Shown in pieces: positions 11,212 through 29,847 of a DNA stretch of 64,000 nt. The notes beneath the pieces were generated by a model. The model was not told where the DNA came from and did not search any database. It saw nothing but the letters and a program-made list of their open reading frames with translations. The position numbers and the translations under genes are program-made. The stretch's first letter is position 1, and each line of letters opens with the position of its first letter. Location: positions 1 through 64,000 of the forward strand of contig JACOEH010000019.1 of the NCBI GenBank assembly GCA_024998685.1, given 5' to 3'. The DNA is from Nitrospira sp. (GTDB lineage Bacteria; Nitrospirota; Nitrospiria; Nitrospirales; Nitrospiraceae).

Positions 11212-14200
11212 ATGCTAGAGAATGTCCGCTCATTCATCACCGTTTCTCTGGCAAGCGTGTGGCGACAAAGAGTAGATGAGGGTCCCGTGGATCACGCGCC
11301 ATTATCCGATTTGCTAAAAGAAGACCCCAAAGGGCTGACATCCGATTCGGCTTTTCTCTCTGGAGGCGGGGAGATGGGCGCGTTCACGGCCGCTGCGCTG
11401 CGCGAGAGCGAGGCTCACTTCCGCGAGATGATCGATGCGTTGCCGGCGGCCATCTATACCACCGACGCCCAAGGTAGGCTCACACACTTTAATCCGGCAG
11501 CCGTGGAATTCGCCGGCCGCGTGCCGGAGCTGGGCACCGACCAATGGTGCGTCACTTTGAAGCTGTACCATTCCGACGGCACACCGATGCCGCACGACGA
11601 ATGTCCAATGGCCATCACGCTGAAAGAGAACTGTGTGGTCCGTGGGGCTGAAGCCATCGCCGAGCGCCCCGACGGCACGCGCGTCTGGTTCACGCCTTAT
11701 CCGACGCCGTTGCGCGACGCCAAGGGCAACATCGTGGGCGGCATCAACATGCTGGTAGACATCACCGAGCGGAAGCGGGCCGAGGCACTGTTGTTCGAAC
11801 AGAAACACCTGATGGAACAAATTGCTTCCAGTAGCCCGCTCGACGAAATCCTCACCGAACTGTGCCTTGCTGTGCCTAAACTCAATCCACGAGCCCGCGC
11901 CTGTATTGTTCTCGCCGACGAGCGGCGCAAAAAGATTTCCGGCTCTATCACTCCGGACGTGGTGCCGGCCTTCAGCGCGACGCTTCAGGACGCGCCGATC
12001 AACGATCTCCGCATCGGCGCCTGCGGCCAGGCGATGTATGCCGGCAAACCGGTCACCTGCGCGGACGTGACGAAGGACGAGCGCTGGTCGAAGATGTGGC
12101 GGGATTTGTGCTTGAGCTGCGGGATATTCGCCGGCTACTTCAAGCCGATTCTGGGCTCGGACGGCTTGCCGATCGCCTCATTTTTTCTCTGCTTCGGCGA
12201 ACCGCACACACCCGATGATTCGGAATTGAAATTGGCAGAATTCGGTGCCCACGTTGCCAGCATTGCCATCCAACGCGACCGGGCCAACGAGGCTCGACAG
12301 CGCGATCTCGACGATGCTCGACGCTTGCAGATGATTAGTGCCCAATTGATTCAGGAGGACAGTGTTCAAGCCCTGTACGAACGCATTCTTGACGCGGCGA
12401 TGGGCATCATGCGGTCGGACTTCGGGAGCATGCAGATGCTTGTCCCCGAGGGAATGCAAGGTCGAGGTGAGTTGTTGCTACTGGCCCATCACGGATTTAC
12501 CGCAGAAGCTGCTGAAGCATGGAAGCGGGTCGGCACAGACTCACACTGTATCTGCGGCGAAGCCCTGCGGACCGATGAGCGGGTCATCGTAGCTGATTTC
12601 GAGGCTTGCGACTTCATGGCCGGCGCGCCTGAGCTTGAGACGTATCGGACCGCCGGGATTCGTGCGGCGCAATCCACATTGTTACGTTCTCGTGCAGGCA
12701 AAGTGCTCGGCATGATTTCCACGCACTGGCGCGAGCCGTACCGGCCGAGTGAGCGTGACCTGCGCCTCTTCGACGTGCTGGCCCGGCAGGCGACGGATCT
12801 GATCGAACGCAAGCAGGCGGAGGAGGCCTTGCGGGCCAGCGAGGAAGAGATCAAGCGCGCGCGCGATTACGCCGAGGCCACGCTGCGTACCTCACCTATT
12901 CCGTTGCTCGTGTTGGAAAAGAATTTGCGCGTGAACACCGCCAACGTGGCGTTCTATCAAACGTTCCACGTCAATCCTGCCGAGACCCAAGGGCGTCTTG
13001 TGTATGAGTTGGGTAATGGCCAGTGGAACATTCCGAAGTTGCGGGAATTGCTCGAGAATATTCTATCGCAATGCACCGAGTTTAGAGAGTTCGAGGTCAC
13101 GCACGACTTTGAATACATCGGTCGCCGCACCATGCTTCTCAATGCTCGCCGAATGGAGAATGAGCCGGACATACCGGAATGCATCGTGCTCGTCATCGAA
13201 GACGTCACCGATCGCAAGGTACTCGAGGAACGGCTGCGGTCATTCACCCAGGAGCTTGAAGTGCAAGTCGAGGACCGCACGCAGGATCTCGTGCAGTCGC
13301 AGAACCGCCTGCGCGCGATGGCGACGGAGTTGAATCTTGCGGAGCAACGCGAGCGCAAACGACTTGCCACCGAGTTGCACGATCATCTCCAGCAGACCTT
13401 GGTGCTCGGCAGGCTCCTCACGGGCCAAGGCAAGCGGGCAGCTGCCCCCGTGCCGGCTTGCCTTGATGTGATGAAGAAGATAGACGACATCTTCTCAGAG
13501 GCGCTCACCTACACGCGCACCTTGGTGGCGGATCTCAGTCCCCCCGTGTTGCGCGATCACGGGTTGACGGCCGGGTTGAAATGGCTGGGCGAGTATATGA
13601 GGAAGCATCAGATCACCGTAGCGGTGACCGTGCCCGAGACGGACGCTCTCAAGCTGCCGGAAGATCAGGCCGTCTTATTGTTTCAATCGGTGCGAGAACT
13701 CCTGATCAACTCTTCCAAACATGCGGGAACCAGGGAGGCCGACGTCCGGCTGGAGCGGTATGACGGACAGTTGCGAATCGAGGTCAGGGATCAAGGAGTA
13801 GGCTTCGATCTTGCTGCTGCTGCTGCTGCTGCTGGGACACCTAGTGGAGGCATTTCGTCCAAGTTCGGGCTGTTCAGCATCCAAGAACGCATGCGCGCGT
13901 TAGGGGGCACATTCGAGGTGCAGTCCGCTCTCGGACAAGGCACCACTGCGACGCTGTCCTTGCCTTTGGCAAGGAGTACTGAGGCGAAAGTGCTGAGTGC
14001 TGAGTTATCCGGGGAAAGTTCAGCGCTCAAATCTCAGGACTCAGCACTCCAGCAGCACGCGGAAATCCGCGTGCTGCTGGTAGATGACCATCCGATGATG
14101 CGACAAGGCTTGCGGAGCATTGTCACGGCGTATGATCATTTCGAAGTCGTCGGCGAAGCGGGCGATGGAGCGGAAGCAGTTGAACTCGTTCAACGACTTG

Positions 14201-14460
14201 AGCCGGATGTGGTGGTAATGGACATTGATATGCCGAAAATGGATGGAATCGAAGCGACGCAGCAAATAAAAGCGAATCAGCCGGCCACCGTCGTCATCGG
14301 CCTGTCGGTGAATCAATCAACCGATACGGAGCAAAGAATGAAAGAGGCCGGCGCGTCCGCCTATTTGACCAAAGAAAGCGCCGTTGACGCGTTGTGCCAC
14401 GCCATTGAACAAGCCGTATCCTGCACACAGTATGCGGCCGGTGCCAGTCCAACCTTATAA
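11212..14460 (+). CDS. PAS-GAF-GAF-PAS histidine kinase fused to a receiver domain
   Basis: This 1082-aa soluble signalling protein has no membrane segments. In order: a PAS domain (about 66-190), a GAF domain (about 200-360), a second GAF (about 385-545), a second PAS (about 560-690), HisKA_3 with phospho-acceptor His723 in ATELHDHLQQ, HATPase_c (about 790-905; ELLINSSKHAG and GISSKFGLFSIQERM), a 40-residue linker and a NarL-type receiver (about 948-1070) with Asp1004 in VVMDIDMPKMDG. The protein ends after the receiver, without the LuxR-type HTH usual for NarL regulators, so output must go through another protein. The linker is encoded by the window's heptanucleotide repeat. A seven-Ala tract interrupts the ATPase domain. 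The ligands are unknown. Confidence 0.9.
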   Translation: MLENVRSFITVSLASVWRQRVDEGPVDHAPLSDLLKEDPKGLTSDSAFLSGGGEMGAFTAAALRESEAHFREMIDALPAAIYTTDAQGRLTHFNPAAVEFAGRVPELGTDQWCVTLKLYHSDGTPMPHDECPMAITLKENCVVRGAEAIAERPDGTRVWFTPYPTPLRDAKGNIVGGINMLVDITERKRAEALLFEQKHLMEQIASSSPLDEILTELCLAVPKLNPRARACIVLADERRKKISGSITPDVVPAFSATLQDAPINDLRIGACGQAMYAGKPVTCADVTKDERWSKMWRDLCLSCGIFAGYFKPILGSDGLPIASFFLCFGEPHTPDDSELKLAEFGAHVASIAIQRDRANEARQRDLDDARRLQMISAQLIQEDSVQALYERILDAAMGIMRSDFGSMQMLVPEGMQGRGELLLLAHHGFTAEAAEAWKRVGTDSHCICGEALRTDERVIVADFEACDFMAGAPELETYRTAGIRAAQSTLLRSRAGKVLGMISTHWREPYRPSERDLRLFDVLARQATDLIERKQAEEALRASEEEIKRARDYAEATLRTSPIPLLVLEKNLRVNTANVAFYQTFHVNPAETQGRLVYELGNGQWNIPKLRELLENILSQCTEFREFEVTHDFEYIGRRTMLLNARRMENEPDIPECIVLVIEDVTDRKVLEERLRSFTQELEVQVEDRTQDLVQSQNRLRAMATELNLAEQRERKRLATELHDHLQQTLVLGRLLTGQGKRAAAPVPACLDVMKKIDDIFSEALTYTRTLVADLSPPVLRDHGLTAGLKWLGEYMRKHQITVAVTVPETDALKLPEDQAVLLFQSVRELLINSSKHAGTREADVRLERYDGQLRIEVRDQGVGFDLAAAAAAAGTPSGGISSKFGLFSIQERMRALGGTFEVQSALGQGTTATLSLPLARSTEAKVLSAELSGESSALKSQDSALQQHAEIRVLLVDDHPMMRQGLRSIVTAYDHFEVVGEAGDGAEAVELVQRLEPDVVVMDIDMPKMDGIEATQQIKANQPATVVIGLSVNQSTDTEQRMKEAGASAYLTKESAVDALCHAIEQAVSCTQYAAGASPTL
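13813..13833 (+). repeat. (GCT)7 microsatellite inside the kinase ATPase domain
   Basis: Seven GCT triplets encode seven Ala residues between FDL and GTPSGG. The paralogous kinase at 26704 has two Ala (GCG GCG) at the same place. The in-frame tract is likely variable in length by slippage. Confidence 0.9.
13989..14048 (+). repeat. Heptanucleotide repeat arms inside the kinase-receiver linker
   Basis: The left arm (13989-14005, agtgctgagtgctgagt) and right arm (14032-14048, tctcaggactcagcact) are largely inverse complements. They belong to the same repeat family seen between genes at 28758, 47657, 55433 and 59391. Here they lie in frame and encode the linker residues KVLSAELSG and SALKSQDSAL. 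Confidence 0.85.
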
Positions 14461-22418: not shown

Positions 22419-22763
22419 GTGAGGATGCCGTCGGTTCTTCTCGTGCTTCTCGTTCTCGTACTAAGTGGCGTGAGCGAAATCATGGCCGATCAGGCCACGG
22501 CAAACAAAACCGCCTTAGAAAAATTGAATGATGATTCCATCACGGCGGCCGTAGAAGGAAAATTGGCGGCCGATAATCTTCAAAATATGAATGTGGTGGC
22601 TTTTGCGCAGGTCGAGGTGCAGACAGAACGAGGGACTGTGATTCTCAACGGCGTGGTGGGAACTTCCGAGCAGAAAGCTCGCGCGGAACAGCTTGCTAGA
22701 CAGGTGAATGGCGTCAATGACGTCACCAATAATCTCCAAGTTCAGACGGTCAAGCAACGGTGA
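22419..22763 (+). CDS. Periplasmic BON-domain protein, tandem copy 1
   Basis: A GTG start at 22419 has an excellent AAGGAGG at 22406-22412. The 114-aa product has a cleavable signal (MRMPSVLLVLLVLVLSGVSE, cut near IMA-DQ) and one BON domain (SITAAVEGKLAADNL, GTVILNGVVGTSEQKARAEQ, VTNNLQVQ). It is closely similar to the next gene, so the pair arose by duplication. Confidence 0.85.
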   Translation: MRMPSVLLVLLVLVLSGVSEIMADQATANKTALEKLNDDSITAAVEGKLAADNLQNMNVVAFAQVEVQTERGTVILNGVVGTSEQKARAEQLARQVNGVNDVTNNLQVQTVKQR

Positions 22764-22889
22764 GCGCGCATTCGGCATGATTATAGACGGCTCGATGCCG
22801 ACCCAAACCGGTCTCTCCGCGAGGGCGACCATGGGAAGTTGAGAATTGGAGCATAGAAAGCACCGTCATTTTATATAGGGAATGCTTCC

Positions 22890-23234
22890 ATGAGAATGTT
22901 GTCGCTTGTTCCCGTACTTCTCATTCTCGTCCTGAGCGGAGTCGGCGAAGCTATGGCCGGTCAAGCCGCCACCGACAAAACCGCCTTAGAAAGCTTGAAC
23001 GACGGTTCAATCACATCTGCCATAAAAGGGAAACTGGCGGCCGATAATATCAATCACATGAGTTCGAAGACCTTGGTCCGGATCGATGTGCAGACAGAAC
23101 GAGGCGATGTGACTCTCAGCGGAGTGGTCCAAACTGCGGAGCAGAAGGCTCGCGCGGAACAGCTGGTCCGAGAGGTCAACGGCGTCAAGCGCGTCACCAA
23201 CAATCTCCAGGTGCAGGCCGCCAAGCAGCAGTAA
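22890..23234 (+). CDS. Periplasmic BON-domain protein, tandem copy 2
   Basis: This 114-aa protein is a duplicate of the 22419 protein, with the same layout: signal peptide (MRMLSLVPVLLILVLSGVGE) and one BON domain ending VKRVTNNLQVQAAKQQ. It follows after a 126-bp spacer that may hold its own promoter. The Shine-Dalgarno is weaker than in copy 1. Confidence 0.85.
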   Translation: MRMLSLVPVLLILVLSGVGEAMAGQAATDKTALESLNDGSITSAIKGKLAADNINHMSSKTLVRIDVQTERGDVTLSGVVQTAEQKARAEQLVREVNGVKRVTNNLQVQAAKQQ

Positions 23235-24890: not shown

Positions 24891-26441
24891 CTATTGAGTA
24901 TGATCGCGCCGGCTGGTATTGATCGCGGGGTTGTCCTTGGCGCCGCCGACTCCGGCTATGCTCAAATGGAAATCATCGGTTTGCGCGGACGGCGTCGAGA
25001 GGCGGCTCCTCAATTGACTCGCGCGATGACGCATGCGCGTGATCAGGTCCTGTTCAACCGGACCCTGCTGTGAAAGCCGACCCAGTGCTTGCTCCCATAC
25101 GGCCAATGCCCCGGTCGACTCGCCGCGACGTTCGAGTTCAATGCCGAGTTGATAGGCCGCCAGTGAGGAAGGAGATGGACAATGGGCCACGACCTGAAAC
25201 ATCCGCCTAGCCTCGCGAGAGTCACCCTGTTCGGATTTCATAGTCCCGAGGCTCAGCAGGGCGGGGGAATAGCAGGGCTCTTGCTGTAAGGCCTTTCGGT
25301 AGAACACTTCCGCCTTGTCGAATTGTTGCTGATGACGACGAAGATCGCCGGCGTCAGTCAAGAGTTTGAAATCGTCGGGCAGGAGGGTCAAAGCCAGTTC
25401 ATATCTCGCCCATGCCTCATCGGCGTTGCCTTTGGAAGCCAATGCCCGGCCGAGATCATGTAAAATATCCGGCCGATTCGATTTCACCAGCAAGGCCGAC
25501 TCATAGTGCCGGATCGCTATATCCAGGAGGTCGGGATCTTTCCGTATGACGTCGGCCATCAACTGTAGTAAGTGAGCCGTCGCAACATGTGCATCGAACG
25601 CAGTGGGCTTAGGGATGGCGCGCGCTGTTCGACCGGGTGGCTCATCAGACTCGTCCCCCGAGAGGTGATTGGCGGCAAGCCATTCGCGGATCCTCGCCGA
25701 GGGAATGCAATAACTCAAACCGGCCCGCAACATCACCCGTCCGATCGACTCGCCCTGCATATTTTTAGCCGTCTCCAGATACGGAACGGTATGCACCATG
25801 AGCCCTACGATATGCCCGGACGCAGCGTCGACGAGGGGACCGCCGCTGCTTCCCGCATTCATGAGCCCGGTAATGTGAAGAAAAGGCAGGGGCTTGTGGG
25901 CGATGCGGGACTGCCCCATCGCTTCTCCGCTCACCGTTACGGGGAACACAGTCGGATGGATCGTTAAACCTGTCTGAAGCACGTCCGGCAAGCGGGGATA
26001 TCCGATGGTCACCGCGGACATGCCTTCTTCAGCCGGTTCCTTGGCCAACGACAAGTACGGAACGGGATGGGTGTAGGTGAGGCGTAGCGCCGCGAGGTCG
26101 AGATCAGGATCCACCGCTAGAATCTCTGGAACCGGTGTCGGGCCATCGGCCGCTCCATAGACCATGATGCGTGTGGCTTCATGGATGACATGGGCATTGG
26201 TAATCAGCAAGCCGTCTTGAGAGATGAACACGCCGCTGCCGAAAGATAGGGCGTGTGTTTCATCATCGATTCCGATGACGAGCGCCGTCGCTCCTTTGCC
26301 GGAACGGTACAAATCGCCTGTCGTCAACCCCCAGGCGGGCCATGCAGTGAACAGTCCCGCGCAGACGAGGATGGTACGGACGGCAAGAAGACTATGGGGC
26401 CCTGCGAGTGTGATGGTGTCCCTCGGTGCGATGAGATGCAC
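24891..26441 (-). CDS. Trypsin-like serine protease with TPR repeats
   Basis: This 516-aa protein (GTG start at 26441) has a hydrophobic N-terminal segment suggesting export. The protease domain (about 50-260) shows the triad regions: His in ITNAHVIHEA, Asp in DPDLDLAALRL and Ser in MNAGSSGGPLVDA, the arrangement of DegP/S1C-like enzymes. No PDZ domain is seen. The second half (about 285-470) is a series of TPR helices (LHDLGRALASKGNADEAWAR, LGTMKSEQGDSREARRMF). It probably acts on periplasmic proteins, with the TPRs as partner-binding surface. It is transcribed away from the kinase at 26704. Confidence 0.88.
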   Translation of the reverse strand: MHLIAPRDTITLAGPHSLLAVRTILVCAGLFTAWPAWGLTTGDLYRSGKGATALVIGIDDETHALSFGSGVFISQDGLLITNAHVIHEATRIMVYGAADGPTPVPEILAVDPDLDLAALRLTYTHPVPYLSLAKEPAEEGMSAVTIGYPRLPDVLQTGLTIHPTVFPVTVSGEAMGQSRIAHKPLPFLHITGLMNAGSSGGPLVDAASGHIVGLMVHTVPYLETAKNMQGESIGRVMLRAGLSYCIPSARIREWLAANHLSGDESDEPPGRTARAIPKPTAFDAHVATAHLLQLMADVIRKDPDLLDIAIRHYESALLVKSNRPDILHDLGRALASKGNADEAWARYELALTLLPDDFKLLTDAGDLRRHQQQFDKAEVFYRKALQQEPCYSPALLSLGTMKSEQGDSREARRMFQVVAHCPSPSSLAAYQLGIELERRGESTGALAVWEQALGRLSQQGPVEQDLITRMRHRASQLRSRLSTPSAQTDDFHLSIAGVGGAKDNPAINTSRRDHTQ

Positions 26442-26703
26442 TGTACACTACGCAGGAAGAGTGAATAAAGCGAGGATAATTTCATAAGGAGAATCGCAGC
26501 AACACTAGGCGAATCCCTGGTTTTGGCGAGTCGTCATGGAGTGAAGCGCCGGGATGGTAGATTGTCAACGAGTTTCTAGGGAACTTGTATGTAGGATCTC
26601 CCTTCTCTATTGTGCACCATTCCCTGCCGTTTTGTGTGTAATGGTGGATAGTGATTGATCGAGGTGGATCGCCGGTTGAGAGCGTCTATCAGGAGACCGG
26701 TTC
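26442..26703. promoter_or_regulatory. Divergent intergenic region
   Basis: This 262-bp region separates the protease and chimeric kinase genes. CAGGAGA at 26690-26696 is a plausible ribosome binding site for the kinase. A half-site TTTCTAGGGAAC (26573-26584) resembles half of the CTAGG-N6-CCTAG element. No clear terminator or promoter was found. Confidence 0.3.
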
Positions 26704-28740
26704 ATGAAGAGGACGAATAGCCGAGGCGTCATGTCGCGGAGTTTGCCCAAAGCTCCAAGCGGGATCAATGGATTCGATGACATCACCGGGGGAGGGTTTC
26801 CGCGCGGCAGGCCGACGCTTATCTGCGGTAGCGCCGGCTGCGGCAAAACGCTCATGGCGATGGAATTCTTCATGCGCGGGGCCACGCTCCACGATGAGCG
26901 AGGCGTGTTCATGGCATTCGAGGAAACCGAAGAGGAATTAACGCAGAACGTGCGATCGCTCGGGTTCGACTTGGACGACTTGGTGAGCCAGAAAAAGCTC
27001 GTCGTCGATTTTGTGCGGGTCGAGCGTCATGAAATTGAAGAGACGGGCGATTACGATTTGGAAGGCCTGTTCGTCCGGTTGGGTCATGCCATCGACAGCA
27101 TTGGAGCCAAGCGGGTCGTTCTAGACACAATCGAGGCGCTGTTCAGCGGTCTCTCGAACGCCGCTTGGAATGCAGGCGCAGAGAGGCTGTTTGGTTATAG
27201 GGAGGGGGAAGTAGTAGGTCAACCGGTGCTCATGCTCATACCACCCAACCGAGTCGATGAAGAGCCCCGCATTCTCGAACGCATCGGTCGCGGAGAGCGT
27301 ATTGAACATTACGAGACCGTTCGTCGCCGCAAAGATGGCACGCTGCTGGATGTCTCTCTGACGGTCTCCCCCATTATGAACGCCTATGGCCAGATTATAG
27401 GCGCATCGAAAATCGCGCGGGATATTAGCGAACCCAAGCAGGCGCAGGAAACGCTGCGCACGAGTGAAGAACGACTGCGCGTGTTTGCCAGTCAATTGGA
27501 GCAACGCGTGGCCGAACGCACGCAGGAACTCGCTCAGTCGGAAGATCATCTCCGCACGCTGGCTAAGGAGTTGAATCTGGCCGAGCAGCGCGAGCGCAAA
27601 CGGCTCGCCACCGAGCTGCACGATCATCTTCGACAGATGCTGGTACTAGGAAGGCTCACGATCGGGCAAAGCAAGCGAGTAGCGGCCGTTGTGCCGGCCG
27701 TTGAACAAATCCTCAAAAAGATGGACGACATCTTCTCGGACTCGCTGACCTATACCCGCACTCTCGTCGCGGACCTGAGCCCCACTGTTCTGCGCGATCA
27801 TGGATTGGCGGCGGCGCTTCAATGGCTGGGGACCTACATGCGGAAGTACAATCAGACCGTCACCGTGACCGTGCCGGGCGACGAGGATCTGAAATTGCCG
27901 GAAGACCAAGTCATCTTATTGTTCCAATCCGTGCGAGAACTCCTGATCAATTCTTCAAAATATGCGGGAACTGGACAAGCGAAAGTGACGATTGAACAGC
28001 GCGATGGTCTACTGAGAATCGACGTGCGCGATGAAGGGGCTGGTTTCGATCTTGCGGCGGCGGGGACACCTAGCGGGGGCATTTCTTCTAAATTCGGACT
28101 CTTTAGTATCCGGGAACGCATGCGGGCGCTCGGCGGATCGTTCGAGATCGAGTCGGCGCTGGGACAGGGAACCACTGCGACGCTTATGCTGCCGCTCGGC
28201 GGCGAAGCCGCCGCCAGGACTGAGGACTCAGAACTGAGGACTGAGTTGTCTGGAAAAAACTCAGCACTCAACACTCAGGACTCAGCACTTCCTGGCCGTT
28301 CAGTCCTCAGCACTCTGGCCTCAGCACTCCAACAAGACACGAAACGAATTCGCGTCTTGTTGGTGGACGACCACACCATGGTGCGCCAAGGCCTGAAGGC
28401 GGTACTCGATGGCTATGCCGATATTGAACTGGTGGGCGAGGTGGGCAGCGGCGAGGAGGCGGTGCGGTTGGTGGACCAGCTTCGGCCCGACGTCGTCGTC
28501 ATGGATATCAATATGCCGAAGATGAACGGGATCAAGGCAACGGTGGAGATCAAAGCCCGCTCTCCCGAGACCGTCGTGGTCGGCTTGTCCGTCGACGCTG
28601 TGGGAGATCATCAACAGGCCATGCTGCGAGCGGGCGCCATCCGATTCATGACCAAAGAAGCGGCAGTGGAGCAACTCTATGATGCGATTCAGAGGGAGGT
28701 CAAAAAGAGAGCCGTGATGAGGAATGAGGGCGAGCGCTGA
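26704..28740 (+). CDS. Chimeric KaiC-fragment / PAS / histidine kinase / receiver protein
   Basis: Residues 18-152 are the front part of a KaiC-type RecA ATPase: SGINGFDDITGGGFPRGR, Walker A GSAGCGKT (42-49), the catalytic Glu pair in FEETEEE, and Walker B RVVLDTIEAL (to ~146). It stops abruptly at GLSN152 and the next residues (AAWNAGAERLFGYREGEVVG) are PAS sequence lacking its first strands. Then come a coiled linker, HisKA_3 with His306 in ATELHDHLRQ, HATPase_c, a repeat-encoded linker and a NarL-type receiver with Asp601 in VVMDINMPKMNG. There is no HTH. The C-terminal half is paralogous to the 11212 protein. The mid-domain junction near nt 27160 suggests a deletion fused two genes. Confidence 0.88.
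   Translation: MKRTNSRGVMSRSLPKAPSGINGFDDITGGGFPRGRPTLICGSAGCGKTLMAMEFFMRGATLHDERGVFMAFEETEEELTQNVRSLGFDLDDLVSQKKLVVDFVRVERHEIEETGDYDLEGLFVRLGHAIDSIGAKRVVLDTIEALFSGLSNAAWNAGAERLFGYREGEVVGQPVLMLIPPNRVDEEPRILERIGRGERIEHYETVRRRKDGTLLDVSLTVSPIMNAYGQIIGASKIARDISEPKQAQETLRTSEERLRVFASQLEQRVAERTQELAQSEDHLRTLAKELNLAEQRERKRLATELHDHLRQMLVLGRLTIGQSKRVAAVVPAVEQILKKMDDIFSDSLTYTRTLVADLSPTVLRDHGLAAALQWLGTYMRKYNQTVTVTVPGDEDLKLPEDQVILLFQSVRELLINSSKYAGTGQAKVTIEQRDGLLRIDVRDEGAGFDLAAAGTPSGGISSKFGLFSIRERMRALGGSFEIESALGQGTTATLMLPLGGEAAARTEDSELRTELSGKNSALNTQDSALPGRSVLSTLASALQQDTKRIRVLLVDDHTMVRQGLKAVLDGYADIELVGEVGSGEEAVRLVDQLRPDVVVMDINMPKMNGIKATVEIKARSPETVVVGLSVDAVGDHQQAMLRAGAIRFMTKEAAVEQLYDAIQREVKKRAVMRNEGER
28216..28330 (+). 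repeat. Heptanucleotide repeats inside the second kinase-receiver linker
   Basis: Tandem 7-bp units (CTCAGCA, CTCAACA, CTCAGGA on one arm; GGACTGA and GAACTGA on the other) fill the coding sequence between the ATPase and receiver domains. They encode TEDSELRTELSG, SALNTQDSAL and VLSTLASALQQ. It is the longest member of the family here and remains open in frame. Confidence 0.85.
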
Positions 28741-29077
28741 GAATTTTTCTGAACCAATTCAGGACTCAGAATGCGTCGCCTTCCGAGGCACTTACCGCTC
28801 AGGACTCAGTACCCAATACCCTACAAGGCACGCGTGATTTCGCACTCAGGTCGAAATAGACGGTCACTGAGGAGCTGTACGATGCGAGCATGACGGCGAC
28901 ACGGCAAGCCTCCTGACGATAACCTTATGCTCTCGGGACTTCCTCTACTGCGCGAAGGGTAGCCAGCAGTAGCCATACTAAGGCCGCTGATCCCACAAGT
29001 GTCCGCTCCCTCCTACTCAGAATTTACCCACCCTTCTTCGAAATGGCGTCCAGGGACGATGGCATGTGGTGGAAGGC
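28741..29077. repeat. Intergenic region with heptanucleotide repeats
   Basis: This 337-bp region follows the chimeric kinase. Copies of the CTCAGGACTCAG motif lie at about 28759-28770 and 28797-28808, with a weaker one near 28842. The remainder up to the DksA-like gene on the other strand shows no supported gene. Confidence 0.6.
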
Positions 29078-29497
29078 TTACGCGTCGTCCCGTCGGTCCT
29101 CTTGTCGCGCAATCTTCTCCAGCACTTCGGCCTGATGTTGGCACGACAAACACCGTTTTGCGAAAGGGAGGGCTTTCAAACGCCCCGCGCCTATTTTGGC
29201 ACCGCAATCTTCGCACAATCCGTACTCTCCATCGTCTAGTCGGCGGAGTGCGGTATCGAGCATCATGCGGGTGCGGTTACGCGCCTCCAGCAACGACAGT
29301 TGTTGTTCGCCGGTGCTGTCACGTAGAGACATATCTTCAAGGTCAAGAACGGAGTCATTGTGGTTCGCCGAGTGGTGCTCCCGATATTGCGCCAAGAGAT
29401 CATGGATCTGTTGTTGAATCGCTGAGCGCCTTTCGAGCAGCATGGCCCGAAGCTCATCCGTTGATGTGGAAGTAGGTTCAATGAGTGTCTTTGCCAT
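29078..29497 (-). CDS. TraR/DksA-family zinc-finger protein
   Basis: The start at 29497 follows AAGGAGCC on the minus strand. The 139-aa product has an N-terminal coiled-coil (ELRAMLLERRSAIQQQIHDL, then LEDMSLRDSTGEQQLS) and a C-terminal zinc finger with the DksA-type CEDCG and CLSC cysteines (GEYGLCEDCGAKIGAGRL, then RCLSCQ). Family members bind the RNA polymerase secondary channel and alter promoter output with ppGpp. The acidic tip residues typical of true DksA are not clearly conserved, so I call only the family. Confidence 0.88.
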   Translation of the reverse strand: MAKTLIEPTSTSTDELRAMLLERRSAIQQQIHDLLAQYREHHSANHNDSVLDLEDMSLRDSTGEQQLSLLEARNRTRMMLDTALRRLDDGEYGLCEDCGAKIGAGRLKALPFAKRCLSCQHQAEVLEKIARQEDRRDDA

Positions 29498-29847
29498 GAT
29501 CAGGCTCCTTCGTGTTGAAGTTTGAATCAGTGACGGTACGTTTGCTTGATCTGCAAAAATGAGACCGCGCTTGTCTCGTTCGCATCCTTCCAAAATGAAA
29601 AATTTTTAGAAATCAAATCTCCACAATGCATCAGCTTTTTCAAGAGCGGACTGTTGATGGATTTCCTCATCTCACGCGATGTGCATAAAGATGGAAGGAC
29701 AAATTGTCCTCTCAGGCGCATAATTCCTGGATGTTGTCTCGCCCAAAGTGGCAAGGGATCGACCTCTTCTGTTCGTTAGTCTAGACGCTACAGACATTAC
29801 GATTGCACCCCTGCTGGATCACCAGTAAATTTCCTAGGGATGGAATC
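29498..29847. promoter_or_regulatory. AT-richer divergent intergenic region
   Basis: This 350-bp region lies between the DksA-like gene and the endonuclease/phosphatase gene. It is visibly more AT-rich than its neighbours around 29546-29660. An interrupted palindrome, aggacaa-a-ttgtcct (29696-29710), could be an operator. No gene is supported. Confidence 0.35.

Follow-up and report, generated by a model that had tools for sequence, protein, structure and literature searches.

Among the described systems closest to the one treated here is the KaiBC hourglass timer of Cereibacter/Rhodobacter sphaeroides, whose KaiC is known from the structures 8dba and 8fwi (PMC10076222) and whose kaiBC operon contains a kinase (PMC5520375). 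Within the Nitrospirota, XS-1 has kaiBC clusters that lie among kinase genes (PMC10278575). In the 64,000-nt stretch of Nitrospira DNA analysed here (the window), one gene has the same kinds of parts as the kaiC-kaiB-histidine kinase clusters of non-cyanobacteria and retains a front and an end part; unlike those clusters, it has lost what lay between, and the parts left at either end now make up one protein. Together with 8db3, the two structures named above are the best solved-structure matches to residues 14-165 of that protein. Like the R. sphaeroides KaiC, it has a Walker A motif, a pair of glutamates and a Walker B motif. Unlike it, it has no further part of the CI domain, no CII, no phosphosites, no coiled-coil tail and no KaiB partner, whereas the intact KaiC of a relative (genome G027) aligns to the R. 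sphaeroides structures over 14-566, C-terminal extension included. No KaiBC-type clock is to be expected, since there is no KaiB and the protein has neither the later part of CI nor CII, which bears the phosphosites. Our main reading, to which we would give a probability of about 0.72, is that an ancestral kai cluster collapsed and left a relic half of KaiC on a hybrid kinase.

The gene occupies 26704-28740 on the forward strand, a single 678-aa open reading frame with no internal stop, and encodes a 5′ part of KaiC, a PAS remnant, HisKA_3, HATPase_c and a receiver. The initial annotation, made from the letters alone, had described a KaiC-like ATPase spliced in frame onto a PAS domain that lacks its start, and both the Pfam coverage and the switch in DNA homology at 27165 bear this out. 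The KaiC-derived part (26704-27165, residues 1-154) runs through the CI domain to just past Walker B, and PF06745, the KaiC ATPase family, matches it once, over residues 18-149 and profile positions 2-133 of 231; the G027 protein has two PF06745 stretches, the better of which covers 1-229 of 231. The three motifs claimed for it are in place: Walker A as GSAGCGKT (residues 42-49, 26827-26850), the catalytic glutamates E73-E74 within FEET at residues 72-75 (26920-26925), and Walker B as VVLD (residues 138-141, 27115-27126). Judged as a KaiC, then, the protein has these three elements of CI but not the two RecA domains CI and CII; the later strands and the KYRG region of CI are lost, and with them the invariant residues past position 154 of an intact CI. 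The PAS remnant (27166-27432, residues 155-243) is without its first strands, the Pfam match from residue 155 beginning at profile position 16 for PAS_9 or 26 for PAS, whereas the PAS of the kinase in another relative, G001, is complete (2-113 of 113). Downstream, the protein has what a HisKA_3 hybrid histidine kinase should have, namely a phospho-acceptor histidine, a HATPase_c domain and a receiver aspartate. HisKA_3, the dimerisation and phosphotransfer domain, is matched over 1-68 of 68 (27592-27792), with His306 encoded at 27619-27621 and the DxxxQ motif kept; HATPase_c is matched over 4-109 of 111 (27913-28197); and the receiver (Response_reg) is matched over 1-111 of 111 (28354-28692), with its phospho-acceptor Asp601 encoded at 28504-28506. 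The linker between HATPase_c and receiver is encoded by degenerate ACTCAG-type repeats at 28215-28335.

At the level of single bases, the window DNA follows the intact kaiC of G027 over 26667-27165, at 83.8% identity, and from 27165 on it follows PAS kinases, for example the G001 kinase at 71% up to 28592. The window reads CTCTCGAACGCCGCT and then, across the join, TGGAATGCAGGC; the same position in the G027 kaiC reads CTCTCGAACGCCGCT followed by ATTTTGCGGGCC, and in the G001 kinase ATCACGAGT followed by TGGAATAAGGGC. The breakpoint had been put at residue 152, near nt 27160, which is nearly right but two codons short: N152, A153 and A154 still belong to KaiC, and W155 is the first PAS residue. 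The join thus falls at 27165/27166, between codon 154 (GCT) and codon 155 (TGG), and the frame is kept. Only one base, a T, is common to the two sides, so that illegitimate rather than homologous recombination looks to be the case; a homology-driven join was considered and rejected on the same single-base overlap. Judged from the folds of the two families and from the structure model, the join would lie in KaiC in the loop that follows the Walker B strand, and in PAS roughly where strand two ends.

The neighbourhood supports the earlier claim that a kaiC was fused with a PAS-kinase gene. On the left of the fused gene lies a trypsin-like/TPR protease gene (24891-26441, reverse strand), a neighbour shared with G027, G023 and G010, and on the right a gene for a DksA/TraR zinc finger (29078-29593, reverse strand), shared with these three and with G001. 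In G027 the order is protease, kaiC, kaiB, kaiB, kinase, dksA; in the window it is protease, fusion, dksA. The G027 kaiC encodes 582 aa with two full domains and is 86% identical to the fusion over the shared part, and the kinase of the G027 cluster has the architecture PAS-HisKA_3-HATPase-receiver. The initial annotation had suggested looking in close strains for a PAS-kinase gene preceded by an intact kaiC; G027 has this arrangement at the same site, and the order kaiC-kaiB-kaiB-kinase also occurs elsewhere in four further Nitrospirota genomes (G029, G016, G007 and G055). Beyond the phylum, 42 KaiC loci were compared, from Chloroflexi, Verrucomicrobia, Planctomycetes, Bacteroidetes, Methanosarcina and others. 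The majority likewise show kaiC-kaiB-(kaiB)-kinase, and in all but one, which reaches the contig end first, KaiC extends beyond the point at which it is cut in the window. The picture drawn at the outset needs a first refinement, in that the lost cluster also held two kaiB genes. Upstream of the fusion (26451-26703, forward strand), the first ~70 bp and the last 37 bp are homologous to the region upstream of the G027 kaiC. Between protease and kaiC, G027 has a transposase-like gene that looks IS630-like by eye (L062, 3573-4621); it splits this upstream region, which runs continuously in the window. On the 3′ side, a 21-base match is all that the flanks of window and G027 have in common, a hint and no more.

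What was lost from the locus was not found elsewhere. The window's own genome (G000, 98.8% complete) has no kaiB gene; the remaining part of the fused kaiC is absent genome-wide, the only thing like it being a 30% paralogue on contig C6; and no strong second copy of the junction region exists in the whole of that genome. On C6, the stretch L068 5785-9390 holds a second KaiC, of 516 aa and from another subfamily, and a PocR-PAS kinase gene that the kaiC-type gene overlaps by 20 nt; that kinase gene is split by a frameshift into frames of 354 and 333 aa, and no kaiB is present there. In the genus, KaiC of the type found in the fusion occurs in 4 other genomes out of 79, at 64-86% identity over the half-domain, always in open frames of ~590-627 aa. 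A 115-aa junction peptide was matched on both sides in only one of 395 genomes of the phylum, the window's own, the other phylum genomes listed matching it on one side, KaiC or PAS, and never on both, and in a scan of GTDB for junction-spanning relatives the matches were again KaiC-only or PAS-only. Two matches that appeared to span it, from Rhizobiales (L159) and Omnitrophota (L185), have a different sensor region before PAS, not KaiC, and were set aside. No recurrence of the junction in many species, which the initial annotation had named as the sign of an old architecture, was thus seen in either search.

The protease-dksA site is empty of cluster and fusion alike in G023, G010 and G001, and no recognisable scar of the cluster is left in these three. 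In a tree of the flanking DNA, the window groups with G023 (91% identical, support 99/100), and G027 is the most divergent. Taken together, the intact cluster in G027, the empty site in G023 and the unique junction lead, on sequence comparison, to a species-specific collapse of a kaiC-kaiB-kaiB-kinase locus. The divergence of the KaiC half from its G027 counterpart is similar to that of the adjacent protease gene (82.9% identity), in keeping with vertical inheritance of a cluster once held in common. Such inheritance would account for the distribution if several relatives lost the cluster entirely and it collapsed in the window; gain of the cluster by exchange between lineages is possible. The ancestor would have carried a kaiC-kaiB-kaiB-PAS kinase cluster between protease and dksA, and illegitimate recombination would then have made the join, most simply as one in-frame deletion of ~3 kb that took out all of kaiC past codon 154, both kaiB genes and the front of the downstream PAS-HisKA_3-receiver kinase. 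The length is an estimate from G027 and G001, composed of 1.3 kb of kaiC, 0.7 kb of kaiB genes and ~1 kb of kinase front.

The kinase half is the place where this simple history may be challenged. Deletion was the mechanism originally proposed, and one deletion is indeed likely but unproven, as the fused kinase and the kinase of the G027 cluster are not orthologues: the two are 44% identical in the kinase core and fall in separate clades. In a tree of 43 kinase cores the fused kinase is sister to the G001 kinase, at 84% identity and with support of 99/96, and this G001 gene has the position that another kinase gene occupies in the window, at 11.9-14.4 kb. The G001 kinase (836 aa, PAS-HisKA_3-HATPase-receiver) is like the fusion in its core and has a similar repeat-encoded linker; it is unlike it in its N-terminal part, which consists of a GAF and two PAS regions, the kinase-adjacent PAS being complete, where the fusion has its half-KaiC and PAS remnant. 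A possible, though tentative, alternative is thus a rearrangement in two steps, in which duplication or gene conversion would have brought in the kinase or its 3′ part from a different PAS-HisKA_3-receiver locus, the junction being formed at that step and not through a deletion within a single cluster. The kinase family does show signs of such exchange: at the syntenic locus of window 11956-14418 and L067 5-2515, the G001 core groups with the fused gene and the window's and G023's own kinases do not, which suggests gene conversion among paralogous kinases. Against it, the own genome holds no close duplicate of the fused kinase, and the slot behind kaiB is held by different subclades in different genomes, so that the window's ancestor may simply have carried a kinase of the fused type there. 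In what it means for function, this alternative overlaps with the preferred history, and we regard one deletion as more likely than arrival of the kinase by paralogue exchange.

The window offers further observations on repeats and duplicated frames. The degenerate repeats of the HATPase_c-receiver linker (ACTCAGGACTCAGCACT) are found also at 28760-28815 and at 14037, paralogous kinases have similar linkers (NSAL..TQDSAL), and the repeat is scattered in a 19-mer form in the own genome and in G023, G001 and G027. At 22419-23234 are two tandem, similar frames of 114 aa, BON-domain-like, with a third related frame just before them; the number of copies does not seem to be the same in G023, G001 and G010.

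It is also conceivable, if unlikely, that the fusion is a functional novelty, in which the half-RecA with its P-loop would bind ATP or ADP and the kinase would report the energy state or fill the old output place of KaiC. The motifs of nucleotide binding are intact, the frame is open, and the half-RecA is set ahead of the signalling helix of the kinase. The half-domain, besides its 86% identity to G027, has a dN/dS of 0.14 against it; a relative-rate test gives 12 changes on the window branch against 8, not significant, and at sites invariant in four outgroups there are five on the window branch against two. With that dN/dS and no clear excess on the window branch, either the event is recent or the half-domain is still constrained. 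In the structure model, a PAS helix (152-163) and strand (175-178) occupy the places where CI has a helix (153-170) and a strand (173-179), so that substitution of PAS for the lost CI elements would at least be geometrically not absurd. On the other hand, the CI sheet is cut past the Walker B strand, many invariant residues are gone, KYRG among them, and there is no KaiB in the genome. Moreover, AlphaFold2, itself a weak judge of truncated domains, gives an intact CI a pLDDT of 73.5 and a pTM of 0.76, and the fused residues 1-262 values of 56.6 and 0.55 at near-equal alignment depth, and confidence drops even in retained KaiC residues (for example, 88/79 intact against 66/58 fused at 31-50). 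In this comparison only the KaiC part counts, as the fused run used KaiC rows only and left the PAS part without alignment support; KaiC-only rows were chosen since alignments over both halves put kinase rows wrongly on the KaiC half. That the half-KaiC P-loop has become a new nucleotide-responsive input, loss of the clock cluster having made an energy-sensing kinase, is a specific version that we find doubtful on present sequence evidence.

The rest of the protein is easier to read. Against the nearest relative, dN/dS in the kinase core is 0.19 for HATPase_c, 0.17 for the receiver and 0.05 for HisKA_3, the latter two with saturated dS; the range for the kinase part is 0.05-0.24 where computable, the dS of the PAS remnant not being so. 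With its catalytic residues also intact, the kinase and receiver core looks functional, as far as sequence can tell. Under the collapse reading, expression would start at the old kaiC start (in-frame candidate starts past the join are a GTG at 27226 and an ATG at 27232), the kinase/receiver core could still autophosphorylate, and the half-RecA and damaged PAS would no longer sense as in the parents; with parental sensing lost, signalling would be constitutive, altered or low, and the half-KaiC would mainly be a passenger.

A trivial explanation, the misjoining of two loci in a draft genome, we consider quite improbable. The assembly is a draft of 105 contigs with many kinase paralogues, and the junction is in no second genome, as would be seen with a chimera. 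On both sides, however, the outer flanks are the neighbours that synteny calls for, the junction is not bridged by any repeated k-mer, the longest exact match spanning it in the own-genome DNA examined is 10 nt, the reading frame is preserved, and the orphan pieces that a misjoin should have left, the rest of kaiC and kaiB, are nowhere in the genome. Finally, an ancient, conserved KaiC-PAS-kinase architecture has virtually no chance of being right, being refuted at the sampling used by the ~590-627-aa frames of all other genus copies and by the lack of any other spanning genome in the phylum, with two non-KaiC candidates in GTDB and nothing found in its favour.

The protein is thus most likely a hybrid kinase with a damaged sensing part and a clock relic, not a new type of clock. 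Unless the half-domain proves to work, the biology is modest, and the interest is that of a snapshot of clock-gene decay. The locus is a base-resolved case of the decay of a kai cluster, intact in one relative, with an empty site in others, and reduced here to one fused gene. It is a natural experiment on whether a halved KaiC domain has any function, and a warning that a KaiC domain match in a genome need not imply a clock.
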